Assembly (NCBI GenBank): GCA_037200045.1
Contig: JBBCHM010000002.1
Span: 857,241 to 921,240 of the forward strand
Origin: Rhizomicrobium sp.
Lineage (GTDB): Bacteria; Pseudomonadota; Alphaproteobacteria; Micropepsales; Micropepsaceae
DNA: 64,000 nt
Direction: 5' to 3'
Shown here: piece after piece, positions 29,808 to 59,875 of the stretch
Position numbering within the stretch: the first letter of the stretch is position 1
Layout of the letters: each line of letters opens with the position of its first letter
Position numbers and translations under genes: made by a program
Notes under the pieces: model-generated
What the model saw: the letters and a program-made list of their open reading frames with translations, nothing else
Database searches by the model: none
Told to the model about the DNA's origin: nothing

Positions 29808-29836
29808 TTGACGCTTCGAAAGAACTAAAGTAGAAC
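29808..29836 (+). promoter_or_regulatory. lexA promoter with LexA (SOS) box
   Basis: A -35 element TTGACG (29808-29813) and a -10 element TAGAAC (29831-29836) are 17 bases apart. The alphaproteobacterial direct-repeat LexA box GAAC-TAAAGTA-GAAC covers 29822-29836, the second half of the spacer and the whole -10. LexA bound here would block polymerase, giving autoregulation. The same layout is found at 57075-57103. Confidence 0.8.
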
Positions 29837-29904: not shown

Positions 29905-30645
29905 ATGCTCACGCGCAAGCAATACGAACTCCTGATGTTCATCCACGAGCGGATTCGGGAGTCCGGCGTGCCGCCGTCCTTCGACGAGATGAAGGACGCG
30001 CTCGACCTGAAGTCCAAATCGGGCATCCACCGGCTGATCACGGCGCTGGAAGAGCGCGGGTTCCTCAGGCGCATGGAAAAGCGGGCGCGGGCGCTCGAGA
30101 TCATGAAGCTGCCGGAAAACGTATCGGATACGCTCAGGCCCGCGACGACGCGCAGCCAGTCGATGCGCGCGGCCAGTCCGCGCCACGGCAGGAGCGAGAA
30201 CCGGATCTCGAACGACGCCCGCATGGCGGGCGGCCCGCGCCGGCCCGTCGGCGACGGCGAGGCCGCGGTCAACGTGCCGCTGGTTGGGCGCATCGCGGCC
30301 GGCACGCCCATCGAGGCGCTGCAGAACAAGGTCGGCGACGTGCCGGTGCCGGGCGGCATGATCGGGCGCGGCGACCATTACGCGCTCGAAGTGACGGGCG
30401 ACTCGATGATCAATGCCGGCATCCTAGACGGCGACACGGTGATCATCCAGGAAGCCGATGTGGCGAACACCGGCGAGATCGTAGTGGCGCTGGTCGACAA
30501 CCAGGAAGCGACGCTGAAGCGGCTGCGCCGGCGCGGCGATTCGATCGCGCTGGAAGCGGCGAACCCGGCCTATGAGACGCGGCTCTACGGCGCCGACCGG
30601 GTGCGCATTCAGGGCAAGCTGGTGGGCCTGATCCGGCGGTACTGA
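29905..30645 (+). CDS. lexA: LexA repressor
   Basis: This 246-residue protein is the SOS master repressor and self-cleaving serine protease. The winged-helix N-terminus has [40 protein letters not shown] and [15 protein letters not shown] basic Ala/Arg-rich linker (about 78-125) is longer than in E. coli. The Ala-Gly cleavage site is in [13 protein letters not shown]. The catalytic Ser is in [15 protein letters not shown] and the Lys in [12 protein letters not shown] chose the ATG at 29905, which matches the family start; an in-frame GTG at 29845 adds 20 atypical residues. Its own LexA box lies at 29822-29836. The last 37 bases overlap the convergent comEC 3' end. Confidence 0.94.
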
Positions 30646-53417: not shown

Positions 53418-56400
53418 CTATACCGACTCCACCTGCGCCACGCCGGGCAGCGATTTGATCGCGTTTTTCAGCGCCACCGACACCTGATAGGGCTTGGGCA
53501 GATTGATCTCGACTTCCTCGCCGGGACCGCCGGGGACGACGAAGGTGACGATGCCCTTGCCGGCTTGCTTGAGCTGCGCCGCGATGGCGCCGAGCGACGT
53601 CGCGTCCTGAAGATAGACCTTGAGCCCCTCCCCCGCATTGGCGGCGGCGGCGTCGAGATCGGCGATGGCGGCGGCGCGCAGCTTGAGCTCGTCGCCGTCC
53701 CATTCCGCGCTGGCGGTGATCAGCACGGACTTGCCGGCCTCCAGCAGCGGGCGCGCGGCGGCCAGCACTTCGGGGAACAGCATCACCTCGAACATGCCGG
53801 TCGGATCGGAGAAGGAGACGAAGGCATAGCTCTCATTGTTGCGGCTGCGCCTTTCGTATTTGCGGATCATGGTGCCGGCGAGGATCGCCTTGAAGCCGGA
53901 GCGGCGGCGATCTTCCGCCAGCGCGGCCAGGGTCGTGGCGCCGAGGCGCTTCAAGGGCGCGGCATAGGCGTCGAGCGGATGGCCCGAGAGATAGAAGCCC
54001 ATGGCGGCGAATTCCTCGCTCAGCCTTTCGTGCGAGGGCCAGTCGGCGACGGCGGCGAGGCGGATATCGTCCTGCTCTTCGGGCGCGCCGCCGAACAGCG
54101 CGATCTGGCCGGATTCGCGCTCGCGGGCATTGCGCTGGGCGCTGTTGAGCAGGATGTCGGCGGATTCGACCACCTGGCGGCGGTTGCGGTTCAAGGCGTC
54201 GAAGGCGCCGGCGCGGGCGAGGCTTTCGAAGGCGCGCTTGTTGACGAGCTTGGGATCGATGCGGCGGGCGAAGTCGCCGAGGCTGCGAAACGGGCCGTTG
54301 GCGCGGCGTTCCTCCACCACATGGTCCATCGCCTGGCGGCCGACACCCTTCACGGCGGCAAGCGCGTAGAAGATGAGGCCCTTCTCGGCATCGCAGGTGA
54401 AGACGGATTCGGAGCGGTTGACGTCCGGCGCCAGGACCTTGATCTCCAGCCGCTGCGCTTCCTGCTTGAAGACGTTGAGCCGGTCGGTGTTGCCGATATC
54501 GAGCGTCATCGAGGCGGCGAGGAATTCGACCGGATAATTCGCCTTGAGATACGCCGTCTGATAGGCGACCTGGGCATAAGCCGCGGCGTGGCCTTTGTTG
54601 AAGCCGTAGCCGGCGAATTTCGCGGCCTGCTCGAAGATCTGCGCCGCGACGCCCTTGGGCACGCCGTTCTTCACGGCGCCGTCGATGAAGCGCTGCTCGT
54701 GCACCGCCATTTCGGAGGCGATCTTCTTGCCCATGGCGCGGCGCAGAAGATCGGCGCCACCGAGCGTGTAGCCGCCCAGCACCCGCGCAATGTTCATCAC
54801 GTCTTCCTGGTACGTCATGACGCCGAACGTCTCGCTCAGGATCGGCTCGAGCGCGGGGTGCAGATATTCCGGCTTCTCCTTGCCGTTCTTGACCGCGATG
54901 TATTTCGGAATCGAGTCCATCGGGCCCGGGCGGTAGAGCGCCACCAGCGCGATCAGATCGTGCACGCGGTCGGGCTTCATCTTGCGCAACAGGTCGCGCA
55001 TGCCCGCGCCTTCGAGCTGGAACACCCCGACGCTGTCGCCCTTCGACAGCATCTCGTAGGTGCCCGGATCGTCGAAATCGATGTTCTGGGTGTCCAGATC
55101 GATGCCACGCTTCTTGAGCAATTCCTCCGCCTTGGCGATGACGGTCAGCGTCTTCAGGCCCAGGAAGTCGAACTTCACCAGGCCCGCCTTCTCGGCATCC
55201 TCATAGTCGAACTGCGTCACCGGCATTTCGGAGCGCGGATCGCGGTAGAGCGGCACGATCTCGTCCAGCGGCCGGTCGCCGATCACCACGCCTGCCGGAT
55301 GGGTGGAGGCGTGGCGGTAGAGACCCTCGATCTTCTCTACGATGGAGAACAGCTTCTGCGCCACCGGTTCCTGCTCGGCGATCTGCTGCAGGCGCGGTTC
55401 GGAGGCGAAGGCGTCTTCCATCGACACCGGCTTGCCGGGCGGATTGGGCACCAGCTTGGCGATGCGGTCGACCAGGCCGAGCGGCATCTGCAAAACGCGG
55501 CCGGCGTCGCGCACCGCGGCGCGGGCCTGGAGCGAACCCAGCGCCATGATATGGGCGACGCGGTCGCGGCCGTATTTCTCGCGGACATAGCGCACGACCT
55601 CGTCGCGCCGCTCCTGGCAGAAATCGATATCGAAATCCGGCATCGAGATGCGCTCGGGATTAAGGAAGCGCTCGAACAGAAGACCGAAGCGGATGGGATC
55701 CAGATTGGTGATGTCGAGCGCCCAGGCGACCAGCGAGGTCGCGCCCGAGCCGCGCACGCCGACCGGAATGCCCTGCCCGCGCGTCCATTTCATGAAATCG
55801 GAGACGATCAGGAAGTAGCCCGCGAAATTCATGCGGAGGATGACGTTGAGCTCGAATGCGAGACGATCGAGATACACCTGCATCTCGGCATGCAGGCCGT
55901 GCTGGGCGAGCTTGGCCTTGAGGCCGGCCGCCGCCTGCTCGCGCATCTCGTCTTCCGGCGAGCGGCCGGATTCGGGGACGAATTGCGGCAGGATGGGATC
56001 GCGCTTCTTGGGCCGGAAGGCGCAGCGCCGCGCGATCTCGACCGTGTTCTCGATCGCCTCGGGCAGGTCGGCGAACTGCGCCGCCATCTCGGCGGAAGAC
56101 TTGAACCGGTGCTCGCGCGTCAGGCGGCGGCGGTCCTCCTGGCTGACGAAGGCGGCGTCGGCGATGCAGAGCAGCGCGTCGTGCGCCTCGTACATGTCGG
56201 CCTTGCCGAAATGCACGTCGTTGGTGGCGACCAGCGGGATCGCCCGCGCATAGGCGATGTCGATCAGCTTGTCCTCGGCGGCGCGTTCTTCCGGAAGGTT
56301 GTGGCGCTGCAGCTCGACATAAAGCCGGTCGCCGAAGATCGTCTGGAGCTTGGCCACCAGCGCATCGGCGGCGGCGACCTGGCCCTCGAGGATGAGCTTG

Positions 56401-56849
56401 TTGACCGGCCCGCCGGGGCCGCCGGTGAGCGCGATCAGCCCCTCGGCATGATCGGCAAGCTGGGCCGCGGTCACATGCGGGAAATCGCCCGGCTCGGCGC
56501 CCAGGAAGGCGGCGCTGAGCAGCTTGGAGAGGTTGCGGTAGCCGGTATCGTTCTGGACCAGCAGGGCCATCGCCGGCGGCTTCTTGCGCGTGCCCAGGAC
56601 ATGGATCGCCGGTGCGTCTTCCAGCTCGACCGAGACCAGGCAGCCGACGATCGGCTGCACGCCGGCCTTGGCCAGCGTGTCGGAGAGTTCATAGGTCCCG
56701 AAGAGGTTGTTGACGTCGGTGACCGCGACGGCGGGCATCGCGTTCTCGCACGCCAGCGCGGCAAGCTCGCCAGGCCTGACCGCGCCTTCGAGGAGCGAGT
56801 AGGCGCTTTTCACCCTCAAATGGACGAATATCGCCGGTTTGCGCTCCAT
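53418..56849 (-). CDS. dnaE: DNA polymerase III subunit alpha
   Basis: This 1143-residue replicative polymerase has an N-terminal PHP domain, FVHLRVKSAYSLLEGAVRPG and AVAVTDVNNLFGTYELSDTL. The C-family palm has VGVRGSGATSLVAWALDI and the catalytic Asp pair in ISMPDFDIDFCQERRDEVVR. GPMDSIPKYIAVKNGKEKPE and MTYQEDVMNIARVLGGYT follow. A tandem HhH motif and an OB fold occupy the last 300 residues. In the PHP start, Leu-Arg-Val replaces the usual LRVHS metal His, so proofreading by PHP is unlikely. An SOS-type small gene lies just upstream. Confidence 0.96.
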   Translation of the reverse strand: MERKPAIFVHLRVKSAYSLLEGAVRPGELAALACENAMPAVAVTDVNNLFGTYELSDTLAKAGVQPIVGCLVSVELEDAPAIHVLGTRKKPPAMALLVQNDTGYRNLSKLLSAAFLGAEPGDFPHVTAAQLADHAEGLIALTGGPGGPVNKLILEGQVAAADALVAKLQTIFGDRLYVELQRHNLPEERAAEDKLIDIAYARAIPLVATNDVHFGKADMYEAHDALLCIADAAFVSQEDRRRLTREHRFKSSAEMAAQFADLPEAIENTVEIARRCAFRPKKRDPILPQFVPESGRSPEDEMREQAAAGLKAKLAQHGLHAEMQVYLDRLAFELNVILRMNFAGYFLIVSDFMKWTRGQGIPVGVRGSGATSLVAWALDITNLDPIRFGLLFERFLNPERISMPDFDIDFCQERRDEVVRYVREKYGRDRVAHIMALGSLQARAAVRDAGRVLQMPLGLVDRIAKLVPNPPGKPVSMEDAFASEPRLQQIAEQEPVAQKLFSIVEKIEGLYRHASTHPAGVVIGDRPLDEIVPLYRDPRSEMPVTQFDYEDAEKAGLVKFDFLGLKTLTVIAKAEELLKKRGIDLDTQNIDFDDPGTYEMLSKGDSVGVFQLEGAGMRDLLRKMKPDRVHDLIALVALYRPGPMDSIPKYIAVKNGKEKPEYLHPALEPILSETFGVMTYQEDVMNIARVLGGYTLGGADLLRRAMGKKIASEMAVHEQRFIDGAVKNGVPKGVAAQIFEQAAKFAGYGFNKGHAAAYAQVAYQTAYLKANYPVEFLAASMTLDIGNTDRLNVFKQEAQRLEIKVLAPDVNRSESVFTCDAEKGLIFYALAAVKGVGRQAMDHVVEERRANGPFRSLGDFARRIDPKLVNKRAFESLARAGAFDALNRNRRQVVESADILLNSAQRNARERESGQIALFGGAPEEQDDIRLAAVADWPSHERLSEEFAAMGFYLSGHPLDAYAAPLKRLGATTLAALAEDRRRSGFKAILAGTMIRKYERRSRNNESYAFVSFSDPTGMFEVMLFPEVLAAARPLLEAGKSVLITASAEWDGDELKLRAAAIADLDAAAANAGEGLKVYLQDATSLGAIAAQLKQAGKGIVTFVVPGGPGEEVEINLPKPYQVSVALKNAIKSLPGVAQVESV

Positions 56850-56917
56850 TGCCGTCCCGATTCGATTTCATGGCCATTGGACCAGTATCGGACGCCGCCG
56901 ACAGCGGCACCGCGCCG

Positions 56918-56926
56918 CTATCCACA
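56918..56926 (+). promoter_or_regulatory. Weak DnaA-box-like site near the dnaE start
   Basis: CTATCCACA differs by one base from the DnaA box consensus TTATNCACA, and is followed by GG like the better site at 57154-57162. It lies between dnaE and the small SOS gene. A single 9-mer is weak evidence. Confidence 0.3.
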
Positions 56927-56945
56927 GGTCCGAATCGCCCCACCC

Positions 56946-57047
56946 CTAGAAGGTCGAGAGCAGCGCCTGTGCCACCGGAACCAGGAGGTAGGACGACGCC
57001 ACAAACACCACCAAACTCACGCCCGCTACCGCATCCCTGATCCACAT
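56946..57047 (-). CDS. Candidate SidA-like SOS-induced small membrane protein
   Basis: A 33-codon ORF, with a start at the ATG at 57047 and a TAG at 56946. The peptide begins MWIRDAVAG, continues with one uninterrupted hydrophobic segment of about 20 residues (SLVVFVASSYLLVPVA), and ends QALLSTF. GAGGA lies five bases before the ATG, a good ribosome site. Upstream is a near-consensus promoter overlapped by a LexA box (57075-57103). Caulobacter SidA is a 29-residue SOS-induced single-pass inner-membrane peptide that blocks division through FtsW/FtsN. Size, topology and SOS control match, but I cannot align the two here. It is 96 bases upstream of dnaE on the same strand. Confidence 0.65.
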   Translation of the reverse strand: MWIRDAVAGVSLVVFVASSYLLVPVAQALLSTF

Positions 57048-57074
57048 GATCGTCCTCGCTCGTTTGAGGATCAC

Positions 57075-57103
57075 ATGTTCTCTTTGTGTTCTTGTCTTGT
57101 CAA
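57075..57103 (-). promoter_or_regulatory. SOS promoter: consensus -35, LexA box over the -10
   Basis: On the minus strand a perfect TTGACA (57103-57098) and GAACAT (57080-57075) are 17 bases apart. The LexA direct repeat GAAC-ACAAAGA-GAAC covers 57091-57077, across spacer and -10, just as at lexA itself. The outer GAAC word also forms an inverted repeat GTTCTTG / CAAGAAC (57088-57107), so the operator may be extended. The start of transcription would be about 20 bases before the ATG at 57047. Confidence 0.8.
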
Positions 57104-57153
57104 GAACAAAACGGGATCGAATCTGATTCGGGACGGCCGCGAAAGCGAGAACT

Positions 57154-57162
57154 TATCCACAG
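57154..57162 (+). promoter_or_regulatory. DnaA box
   Basis: A perfect TTATCCACA lies about 50 bases upstream of the SOS promoter. It matches the DnaA consensus. With the weaker site at 56918 it flanks the small SOS gene, which would allow control by DnaA as well as LexA; this is inference from two short matches. Confidence 0.4.
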
Positions 57163-57272
57163 GCCAACGGTTTCCTGTGCTCCACCAAGGCCTTGCAAGG
57201 ACCGGCGTCGCCGGAAAACCGGCGGATTTCGTGCTGGCCCATGCCATCGCCCGGCCGCTCGTCTGCATCCGA

Positions 57273-57316
57273 TTGTGTGGATTAACACACTGCCGATGTT
57301 GTGCGATATAACACAC
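57273..57316. promoter_or_regulatory. Twin palindromic operators upstream of orphan HicB
   Basis: Two copies of TTGTG(T/C)G-AT-AACACAC occur at 57273-57290 and 57299-57316. Each forms the dyad GTG(T/C)G-N6-CACAC. They overlap a candidate -10 TATAAC (57307-57312) and a TTAACA (57282-57287). The arrangement is what a ribbon-helix-helix autorepressor such as HicB needs. AGGAG lies eight bases before the HicB ATG. Confidence 0.65.
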
Positions 57317-57332
57317 CAAACAGGAGCTCCAG

Positions 57333-57806
57333 ATGGCGTCCAGGCTTTACCCTGCGGTCCTCGAAAAGGCGGAGAAGAAGACCTTCGCGGTCTGGCTGCC
57401 GGACTTTCCGGATTGCGTCGCGGCCGGCCGCACCCAGGAGGAGGCGGTCGAGAAGGCGCAAGTTCGACTGTCCGACATCGTCGACGGGCTGGCGGAGCAG
57501 GATCGCGAAATGCCCGAGCCCACGGCGATGGACGCCATCGCCAAGCCGAAGAACTTCCTCGCTTTCGTGATGATCAGCGTGGCGCCGCCCGATCCGTCGG
57601 AGCGGGTGAACGTCTATCTGCCCAAGCGGCTGATCGCCAAGGTGGACGCGCGCGCCGCCGACCTCGGCATGAGCCGGTCGAGCTTCTTCGGCTTCGTGCT
57701 CAGCGTGATGCTCGGGGTAGCGCCGGGACCGGGCGCGATGGCCGCCAGCACGGCACTTGCGCGTGCCTTGAGGAATGCGACGACGGCGCCGAAGCCGAAG
57801 CGCTAG
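57333..57806 (+). CDS. HicB-family antitoxin-like protein without a HicA partner
   Basis: This 157-residue protein has an N-terminal HicB partial RNase-H-like fold, [20 protein letters not shown] and [20 protein letters not shown]. The C-terminal ribbon-helix-helix has [20 protein letters not shown] and [16 protein letters not shown]. Normally HicB neutralises the HicA mRNA interferase from the neighbouring gene. No HicA-sized ORF with a conserved His is present on either side: upstream lies the SOS gene, downstream the convergent lolD. It is therefore a solitary regulator, or its partner has been lost. Twin operators upstream suggest autorepression. Confidence 0.85.
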
Positions 57807-58507
57807 GCCGGCTGGGGCGTGCCGAGCTTGCCGCCGTCGAGCAGCCTGCCCTCGTGCAGGACCAGGGCGCGGTCCATGCGGGCGGCGAGTTCCAGATTGT
57901 GCGTGGCGACCAGCGCGGCGAGGCCTTCGGAGCGCACCAGATCAACCAGCGCCTGGAACACGCCGACGGCGGTGCGGGTGTCGAGATTGCCGGTCGGCTC
58001 GTCGGCCAAGAGGATCCTCGGCCGGTTGGCCAGCGCGCGGGCGATGGCGACGCGCTGCTGCTCGCCGCCGGAAAGCTGCGAGGGGCGGTGCGTCAGGCGC
58101 TCGCCGAGGCCGAGATAAGTGAGGATGTGCGCGGCGTCGCGCTCGGCCTGCGCGCGCGGGCGGCCCGCGATGCGCTGGGGCATGACGACATTCTCCAGCG
58201 CGCTGAACTCGGGCAGCAGATGATGGGCCTGGTAGACGAAGCCGATCGTGTCGCGGCGGATGCGGGTGCGCTCGGCATCGGGCAGCGTCGAGGCCGCGAC
58301 GCCGCCGATATAGACCTCGCCGCTGCTGGGCGCTTCGAGCAGGCCGGCCATGTGCAGCAAGGACGACTTGCCGGCGCCGGACGGCCCGACCAGCGCGACA
58401 AGCTCGCCCTGGCGCAGCGTGCAATTCACATTGCGGAACACTTCGAGCGTGGCGGGGCCCTGGGTGTAGGTCCGCACGACATTTTCCAGGCGCAGCGCCT
58501 CACTCAT
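57803..58507 (-). CDS. lolD: Lipoprotein-releasing ABC transporter ATPase LolD
   Basis: This 234-residue ATPase powers release of lipoproteins from the inner membrane. Walker A is [20 protein letters not shown], followed by the Q-loop [20 protein letters not shown]. The signature is [20 protein letters not shown], and Walker B is [12 protein letters not shown], followed by the H-loop VATHNLELA. The MacB/LolD-type motif after the Q-loop identifies the subgroup. The ATG at 58507 overlaps the end of lolC by eight bases. The last four bases overlap the convergent HicB stop. Confidence 0.95.
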
Positions 58508-59875
58508 AGCGCAGCACCTCCACCGGATCGAGACGCGCGGCGCGCCAGGCGGGGTAGAGCGTGGCGAGGAACGACAGGCCGAGCGCCAGCACCACGGCGG
58601 ACGCGACATCGCCGATCTCTATGCGCGCCGGCATGCGTTCGAGGAAATAGATCGTCGGGTCGAACAGCGTCGTGCCGGTGATGTGCGACAGGACCTGGCG
58701 GATGCTCTCGATATTGGCGCAGAACAGCGTGCCGATCAGAAGCCCGGTCGCGGTGCCGGCGATTGCCGATGGAGGCGCCGGCGATGAAGAAGATGCGCGT
58801 CACCGCGCCGCGCGTGGCGCCCATGGTGCGCAGGATCGCGATGTCGCCGGACTTGTCCTTCACCAGCATGATGAGGGTCGAGACGATGTTGAACGCCGCG
58901 ACCAGGGTAATGATCGCCAGGATCAGGAACATGACATTGGCTTCGACCTGCAGCGCCTGGAACAGGCTGGAGCTGATCGCCTGCCAGCTCAAGACGCGCG
59001 CGCCAGGGCCGGCCGCGTCGCCGAGCGGCTTCAGCATCGCATTCACGTCGTCGGGATTGGACACCATGACTTCCAGGCCGGTCACGCTGTCAGCGAGGTT
59101 GAAATAGAGCTGCGCCTCGTCCAGCGGCATGAAGACGAAGGTGGAATCGTATTCGCTCATGCCGATGTTGAAGGTGCCGGCGACGGTATAGGTCTTGATG
59201 CGCGGGGTGACGCCGAACGGCGTGACGTTGCCGCGCGGCGCGATCAGCGTGATCGAACCGCCCGGCGCGATGTCGAGCTTGGCGGCGAGACGGGCGCCGA
59301 TGATCACGCTGTCGCCGCCCTTGAACATGGCGAGCGCATCGGGCGTCAGCGAGTTGGAGACCGCCGTCAGGTCCCTTGAGGTCGCCGGCGCGGATGCCGC
59401 GCACCACGACGCCGGGCGAGGTGCCGCCGCCCGAGGCCAGCGCCTGGCCGTCGATGATCGGCGCGACGTGGACCACGCCCGGCACCGCGCGCACGCGGGC
59501 GGCGACCGCGTCGAAACTCGTCAGGTTGCCGCCATAACCCTGGACGATGAAATGACCTTGCAGGCCCAGGATGCGCGCCAGCAGGTCGTGACGAAAGCCG
59601 TTCATCACCGACATGACGATGATGAGCGCGGCGACGGCGAGCGCGATCCCGGCCAGCGACAGGATCGAAATGAACGAAATGAACCCGTCCTTGCGCCGCG
59701 GCCGCAGGTAGCGAAACGCGACCATCCACTCGAAGCCGGCGAAGGGGCGGCTAGCGGCGGGGCGGGGCGCTGGTGGCGCCGTCGCCCCGGCATGGACGAA
59801 AGGCGGCAACTCGGTCGCCGCGATCGCGGCGCCGGCGGTCACGCGCGGCTCGATGTCTGCGGGGTGATCGGCCAT
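58500..59875 (-). pseudogene. lolC: Lipoprotein-releasing system permease LolC/LolE, frameshifted twice as sequenced
   Basis: Three frames together give one permease of 457 residues. The N-terminal part has MVAFRYLRPRRKDGFISFIS with the first membrane segment and IVQGYGGNLTSFDAVAARVR. The periplasmic part has MFKGGDSVIIGARLAAKLDI. The last part has NVMFLILAIITLVAAFNIVS, then [18 protein letters not shown] and a last segment ending EVLRYE. One extra base is found in 59373-59375 (GGG for GG) and one at 58763-58764. Removing both leaves 1374 bases, exactly 458 codons. LolC is essential, so sequencing error is likelier than decay. The ATG at 59875 overlaps the stop of the antitoxin gene; a later start is possible. 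Confidence 0.88.

Follow-up and report, generated by a model that had tools for sequence, protein, structure and literature searches.

What does a reading frame of only 33 codons, preceded by a LexA-like repeat and lying directly upstream of the gene for the replicative DNA polymerase, encode in Rhizomicrobium sp.? Most bacteria must halt cell division upon DNA damage, and the inhibitor that imposes this arrest is unknown outside a few models. Those that are described, namely SulA, YneA, DivS, ChiZ and SidA, are presented as unrelated to one another, with SidA of Caulobacter blocking division through FtsW/FtsN (both in PMC4211646). The first-pass annotation of the window, by which we mean the whole stretch of 64,000 nucleotides that was analyzed, had proposed that this frame specifies an SOS-controlled functional equivalent of SidA, and it is this proposal that we examine here.

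The frame itself (56946..57047, minus strand, ATG to TAG) encodes a putative single-helix membrane peptide, MWIRDAVAGVSLVVFVASSYLLVPVAQALLSTF, whose 33 residues make it easily missed by gene finders. A short ORF with a ribosome site and one hydrophobic segment had been described at this position, and the sequence bears this out: GAGGA (57053..57057, minus strand) and the ATG at 57047 are 5 nt apart, and the best 19-residue stretch of the translation reaches a hydropathy of 2.18. AlphaFold2 predicts one helix covering residues 2-32 (mean pLDDT 94.6), and there are no charged residues beyond D5. When the peptide was compared with Pfam, PHROGs and NCBIfam, no match was obtained at E ≤ 1. The next gene downstream on the same strand, separated by 96 nt, is dnaE, encoding the DNA polymerase III alpha subunit (53418..56849; NF004226, 1390.1 bits against a cut-off of 1002), and a scan of 56700-57350 revealed no terminator-like site between the two. 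On the opposite strand, upstream of the peptide, lies a HicB-like antitoxin ORF (57333-57806; PF15919, 1.7e-21).

The promoter that had been proposed for this ORF is likewise found in the sequence between 57103 and 57075 of the minus strand. It consists of the -35 hexamer TTGACA (57098..57103), a 17-nt spacer and the -10 hexamer GAACAT (57075..57080), which matches sigma-70 weakly and overlaps the second half of the putative LexA box GAACACAAAGAGAAC (57077..57091), a perfect direct repeat of the form GAAC-N7-GAAC. Given that this -10 is far from the E. coli consensus and that a strict sigma-70 scan of 56700-57350 listed no promoter, the promoter call rests on the -35, the spacing, the LexA box and their conservation. 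The claim that the lexA promoter of the same window has the same geometry holds in part. The lexA repressor gene (29905..30645, plus strand; TIGR00498, 171.5 bits against a cut-off of 110.95) is preceded by a LexA box, GAACTAAAGTAGAAC (29822..29836, plus strand), within a promoter of the same spacer length and similar layout; the two are not identical, however, as the lexA promoter reads TTGACG, 17 nt, TAGAAC, and its box, compared with that of the peptide, is shifted 3' by 2 nt with respect to the -10.

The locus also carries sites of another kind. A perfect DnaA box, TTATCCACA, the sole one in the 64-kb window, is located at 57153-57161, about 60 nt upstream of the LexA box of the peptide, and a DnaA box with one mismatch, TGTGGATAG, falls between the peptide and dnaE, such that control of the peptide-dnaE locus by DnaA is possible on the strength of these motifs. 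DnaA boxes with one mismatch occur within 300 nt before dnaE in 18 of 29 loci of the genus; we do not press a general rule, since several of these boxes are simply the ATGTGGATCA start of the peptide itself.

How much can be read into the LexA-like repeat alone? The LexA motif given for Caulobacter, GTTCN7GTTC (PMC12700426), is the same site seen from the other strand. Perfect copies of GAACN7GAAC are present twice in the window against an expectation of 1.37, i.e. at the level of chance, which makes conservation the deciding test. Across the window genome there are 107 of them, compared with 69 of the backwards pattern, and many must thus be fortuitous. Among 15 box stretches that we inspected, picked mainly by their A/T-rich spacers, three precede recognizable SOS genes, which were named by eye from their start sequences: imuA (G000:C1:2512843-2512857), ssb (C2:115341-115355) and, in the other direction, uvrA (C2:116902-116916). 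No gene was recognized as an SOS gene at the remaining 12. Together with the box at lexA, those at imuA, ssb and uvrA fit GAACN7GAAC as the LexA site of this organism, short of proof.

We therefore turned to conservation, which the first-pass annotation had also named as its check, and considered the 37 genomes of the genus Rhizomicrobium, that of the window included. The 33-residue query matches 34 of these 37 at E ≤ 1, and the three that lack a match are 58-74% complete, with weak matches to the start of dnaE (3.4e-5 or worse). Wherever matched (34/34), the peptide lies upstream of dnaE and in the same direction; the interval from the end of its match to where the dnaE match begins measures 78-148 nt in 30 genomes and 536-1050 nt in the other four. 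The upstream regions themselves were examined in 36 cases (30 plus G024, G005, G029 and G004, plus G061 and G338), and in every one of them a peptide of 30-39 aa begins with ATG, a perfect LexA box standing 36-70 nt ahead of this start codon; in 13 of 30, the 90 nt before the ATG also include an exact TTGACA. Thirty aligned peptides share the invariant residues W2, D5 and G9. Moreover, the mean pN/pS is 0.52 in the peptide frame, as opposed to 1.00 and 1.55 in the other two frames, and pN is smaller than pS in 431 of 435 genus pairs. Purifying selection thus acts on the peptide frame and on no other, the joint conservation of ORF and box in 36/36 regions exceeds chance, and the window ORF is a real gene.

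Two further observations concern the genus loci. The element TTTTGTTCTTG (57101-57111), which overlaps the start of the -35 and contains an inverted GAAC half-site, recurs no more than 140 nt from the ATG in 26 of 30 regions and may, judging from its sequence, constitute a second LexA contact. One genome has a second, weak peptide match (G034:C12:59030-59122, E 0.054) some 1.3 kb upstream of the first, a possible duplicate.

If this gene is related to sidA, where does sidA itself reside? It is numbered CCNA_02004 in Caulobacter (PMC11034885), for which dnaE is given as CC1926 and recN as CC1983 (PMC1839093); with recN also appearing as ccna_02062 (PMC12700426), the offset between the two numbering schemes places sidA next to dnaE. 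This is what Caulobacter contigs L257 and L258 display, with LexA boxes and a 29-aa ORF directly before dnaE, and two Phenylobacterium contigs, L217 and L225, carry LexA-boxed relatives of 30 and 29 aa at the same place. The 29-aa form of L258 starts at an internal ATG within a 40-aa ORF, and L258 has one perfect box; the boxes of L257 have one mismatch. The curated NCBIfam model NF033228 (div_inhib_SidA) exceeds its cut-off with all four (L258, 7.7e-21; L217, 2.4e-18; L225, 6.3e-16; L257, 2.8e-15), and by this measure the LexA-boxed ORF before dnaE is, in these Caulobacteraceae, SidA itself. The model matches Caulobacter vibrioides alone among 14 control genomes, and it passes its cut-off in just one of 387 class genomes (G373), where the hit lies 69 nt ahead of the point at which the dnaE match begins.

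The window peptide resembles Caulobacter SidA in its size class (29-33 aa), its one membrane helix, its LexA box, its adjoining position upstream of dnaE in the same direction, and a charged [KR][DE] step near the N-terminus. It differs in that it carries W-x-[KR]-D-x-x-A-G and lacks both the R-E-S-L-A core and W19, and in being too divergent for NF033228, which found no match in the window peptide at E ≤ 1, none among 30 genus peptides at E ≤ 10 and none in the genome of the window at E ≤ 0.01. A direct comparison fared no better, as the genus profile, set without gaps against five Caulobacteraceae peptides, gave no significant result, 2758 of 5000 column shuffles reaching its score. We consequently do not claim a directly recognizable homology; the case for homology rests on intermediates, locus and regulation.

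Such intermediates were sought upstream of dnaE in other lineages. A dnaE match at E ≤ 1e-60 was obtained in 237 class genomes outside the genus, of which 83, representing 62 families, had their upstream region examined (L112 was left out of this set, its contig being incomplete there). Of the 83, 20 (11/62 families) have a perfect box on the dnaE strand in the 700 nt preceding this gene and 63 have none, against a background of 1/83 for each of three control repeats, 1 and 3 for wrong spacings, and a mean of 0.63 for shuffles. All but one of the 20 boxed genomes (19, in 10/62 families) have a short membrane ORF after the box, found by script or by eye, the exception being G432. Similarly, 13 of 80 named loci (the best 80 of 584, scanned as sets of 69 and 11, five of the 11 having less than 350 nt upstream) contain a perfect same-strand box, each followed by a short membrane ORF; among these best 80 of 584 they comprise Caulobacter L258, two Phenylobacterium, two Maricaulis, Hellea, Robiginitomaculum, a Caulobacterales MAG, a Parvularculaceae MAG, two Rhodobiaceae, Bauldia and Ancylobacter, and include no locus named Rhodobacteraceae or Rhodospirillaceae. 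Counted from its first start codon, the ORF is longer in some other families, up to 56 aa or 73 aa. An alignment of thirty such peptides, 27 of which come from non-genus loci, requires few gaps and centers on a charged [DE] step that leads into the helix; column identity averages only 34%, and no column is invariant.

A box running in the opposite direction occurs before dnaE in 8 of the 83 class genomes. It is also seen in 2 of 69 named loci that lack a same-strand box (from the best 80 of 584), and in several cases (L201, L238, L163, L172, L106 and others) it lies roughly 60-95 nt ahead of the start of the dnaE match. Where the box is so oriented, its placement suggests that dnaE itself may be LexA-controlled.

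The only sampled genome of the same family and another genus, G412 (L097), has neither the box nor a peptide match at E ≤ 0.1, and the sidA-like gene has been lost or moved there. Directly before its dnaE stands an ORF that resembles, by eye, the LolD-like ABC ATPase of the window (57803-58609). Taking G412 together with the missing box in most sampled families, losses or replacements must be frequent.

Can the genus peptides be connected to SidA through these ORFs? A genus profile run against 386 class genomes matched 37 at E ≤ 0.1, five within the genus and 32 outside it, and the one outside match that was checked (G330, E 0.0106) lies upstream of dnaE. We then translated 164 non-genus loci (1.0 Mb) in six frames and took every ORF of 20-80 aa. 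Among the resulting 9011 ORFs, 34 dnaE-adjacent ones had been chosen by us as targets (two of them, L105 and L257, with imperfect boxes only), and iterated hmmsearch was carried out at thresholds of 0.01, 0.03 and 0.1 such that every ORF could be admitted. On its own, the genus profile places three targets from a single other family at the top (E 3.6e-4 and 4.6e-3). Starting from the genus, the search at E < 0.01 gathers 17 of the 34 targets and stops before SidA (L257 at 0.068); at E < 0.03 it gathers 24, all four Caulobacteraceae included, and 10 stay outside even at E < 0.1. In the reverse direction, starting from the four Caulobacteraceae peptides, E < 0.01 suffices to gather 24 targets and all 30 genus peptides, that of the window among them, the early order of the chain being G298 (1.5e-4), the Rhodobiaceae-like ORFs, Ancylobacter and Bauldia, and then the f116 group. 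Not a single non-target ORF was admitted in either direction at any of the three thresholds.

Shuffled controls behaved differently. None of 100 column-shuffled genus profiles reached a target at E < 0.01 in the first step, at most four targets entered the top 15 of a shuffled profile versus eight for the real one, and none of 40 shuffled seeds reached any target when carried through the whole chain at 0.03. Admittedly, the iterated method is not free of false joins, given that one of these 40 seeds ran away into 169 unrelated ORFs and that one of the 100 shuffled profiles had a non-target match below 0.01. Homology with SidA is thus supported as a transitive relationship, seen by profile searches in both directions, and not as a direct one. 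The wider group so delineated is held together by a same-strand LexA box and a short membrane ORF upstream of dnaE, joined by the iterated profile. The comparison with Caulobacter sidA and other alphaproteobacteria that the first-pass annotation called for accordingly joins the genus to SidA through dnaE-adjacent intermediates, and its proposal of a SidA equivalent finds support at the level of sequence, where the dnaE-adjacent LexA-boxed peptide of four Caulobacteraceae contigs coincides with the NCBIfam SidA.

Common descent is nevertheless not the only way of arriving at such a picture, as an unrelated SOS-controlled membrane peptide could have arisen or landed at dnaE, giving rise to a SidA analogue by convergence. 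This is what one might conclude from the non-significant profile comparison with the Caulobacteraceae SidA, from the curated model that does not match the peptide and from G412, a member of the same family that does without it. It would, however, leave to coincidence that position, strand, size class, LexA box and the N-terminal [KR][DE] step are all common to both, and that iterated searches join the two ends via intermediates with no other ORF admitted, while shuffled seeds fail. We hence regard convergence as unlikely and consider it quite probable that the window ORF is a divergent sidA ortholog, that is, the gene of an SOS-induced division inhibitor standing at the same place upstream of dnaE.

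A second alternative takes its cue from TisB of E. coli, a very short, LexA-controlled, amphipathic membrane peptide with an antisense RNA partner: the window peptide could be an SOS-induced toxin that depolarizes the cell, with a target other than the divisome. DinQ, a single-transmembrane SOS peptide of E. coli, has an antisense RNA partner as well (PMC3567139). Both have their very small size, single helix and LexA control in common with the window peptide, a likeness by description only. Unlike the amphipathic TisB, the window peptide is uncharged after D5, and of an antisense RNA partner such as those of TisB and DinQ there is little sign, as no Rfam match occurs in 56500-57500 and no promoter-like site on either strand of 56700-57350, by a scan weak enough to miss the sidA-like promoter too. 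Since the profiles furthermore link the peptide to SidA, in a comparison that covered the short ORFs of dnaE loci, we deem a toxin of this type distinctly improbable.

Somewhat more improbable still is that the frame serves as a leader peptide or upstream ORF, setting the expression of dnaE in the SOS response while its product is itself of no importance; the uniform direction upstream of dnaE in 34/34 genus genomes and the 96-nt gap devoid of a terminator-like site could be so explained, yet a distance to dnaE ranging from 78 to 1050 nt within the genus, selection on the protein sequence and a membrane helix kept across families could not. Finally, a chance ORF beside a chance LexA-like repeat, of which one or two are expected per 64 kb, deserves practically no credence, being refuted by the conservation of box and ORF in 36/36 regions and by purifying selection in one frame only.

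Among other damage-responsive division inhibitors, DidA of Caulobacter is small, single-helix and induced by damage, as is proposed for the window peptide, but it is longer (71 aa), SOS-independent and under the control of DriD instead of LexA (PMC4211646), and it is encoded at another locus (CCNA03212). YneA, ChiZ and SosA, to which we liken the peptide by description only, are single-helix proteins induced by SOS or damage, and FtsW is their proposed target (PMC13396833). The same source locates SidA itself, at low confidence, close to TM7 of FtsW. SosA has an extended helix, whereas YneA and ChiZ possess a LysM domain, of which there is none in the 33-aa window peptide (Pfam gives no match at E ≤ 1).

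As a divergent SidA ortholog, the window peptide most likely blocks septal wall synthesis during SOS. LexA sitting over the -10 would keep the sidA-like gene off, and upon DNA damage, RecA-dependent cleavage of LexA would open its promoter. The peptide would then insert as one helix, its short W-x-[KR]-D start presumably facing the cytoplasm, and would keep the late divisome (FtsW/FtsI/FtsN) from acting until the damage is repaired. LexA binding, induction by damage, the FtsW/FtsN target and the division block are what we infer for the window peptide. More tentatively, sidA could perceivably be an ancestral alphaproteobacterial checkpoint gene residing in a sidA-dnaE unit, in which one LexA-controlled promoter would both stop septation and raise polymerase levels by read-through; its ~30 codons and a fast-drifting transmembrane sequence would, on this ancestral sidA-dnaE reading, be why it has been overlooked outside Caulobacter. 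The facts that bear on a shared transcript are the short gap between peptide and dnaE in 30 of 34 genus genomes and a gap of up to 1050 nt in one.

Taken together, we argue that the likely function of this gene is of a known kind, whereas its sequence lies outside the curated SidA family, and that the breadth and age of this family appear to go far beyond its model. We found no report of SidA outside Caulobacter in the literature searched, which was covered mostly at summary level and with the 2011 SidA paper outside its scope. The current model misses most of the group, NF033228 recovering one of 387 class genomes as compared with 19 of 83 outside the genus that have the box and a membrane ORF. 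If our reading is correct, many alphaproteobacterial lineages, spanning Caulobacter and Maricaulis to Bauldia and Ancylobacter, have retained a single family of SOS division inhibitors next to dnaE; it could be searched for by the simple rule of a LexA box and a membrane ORF of ~30 codons before dnaE, and its natural variants could be used to map the way in which one helix turns off FtsW/FtsI/FtsN. Collectively, these findings suggest that the damage checkpoint is older and more widespread than the current gene model shows.
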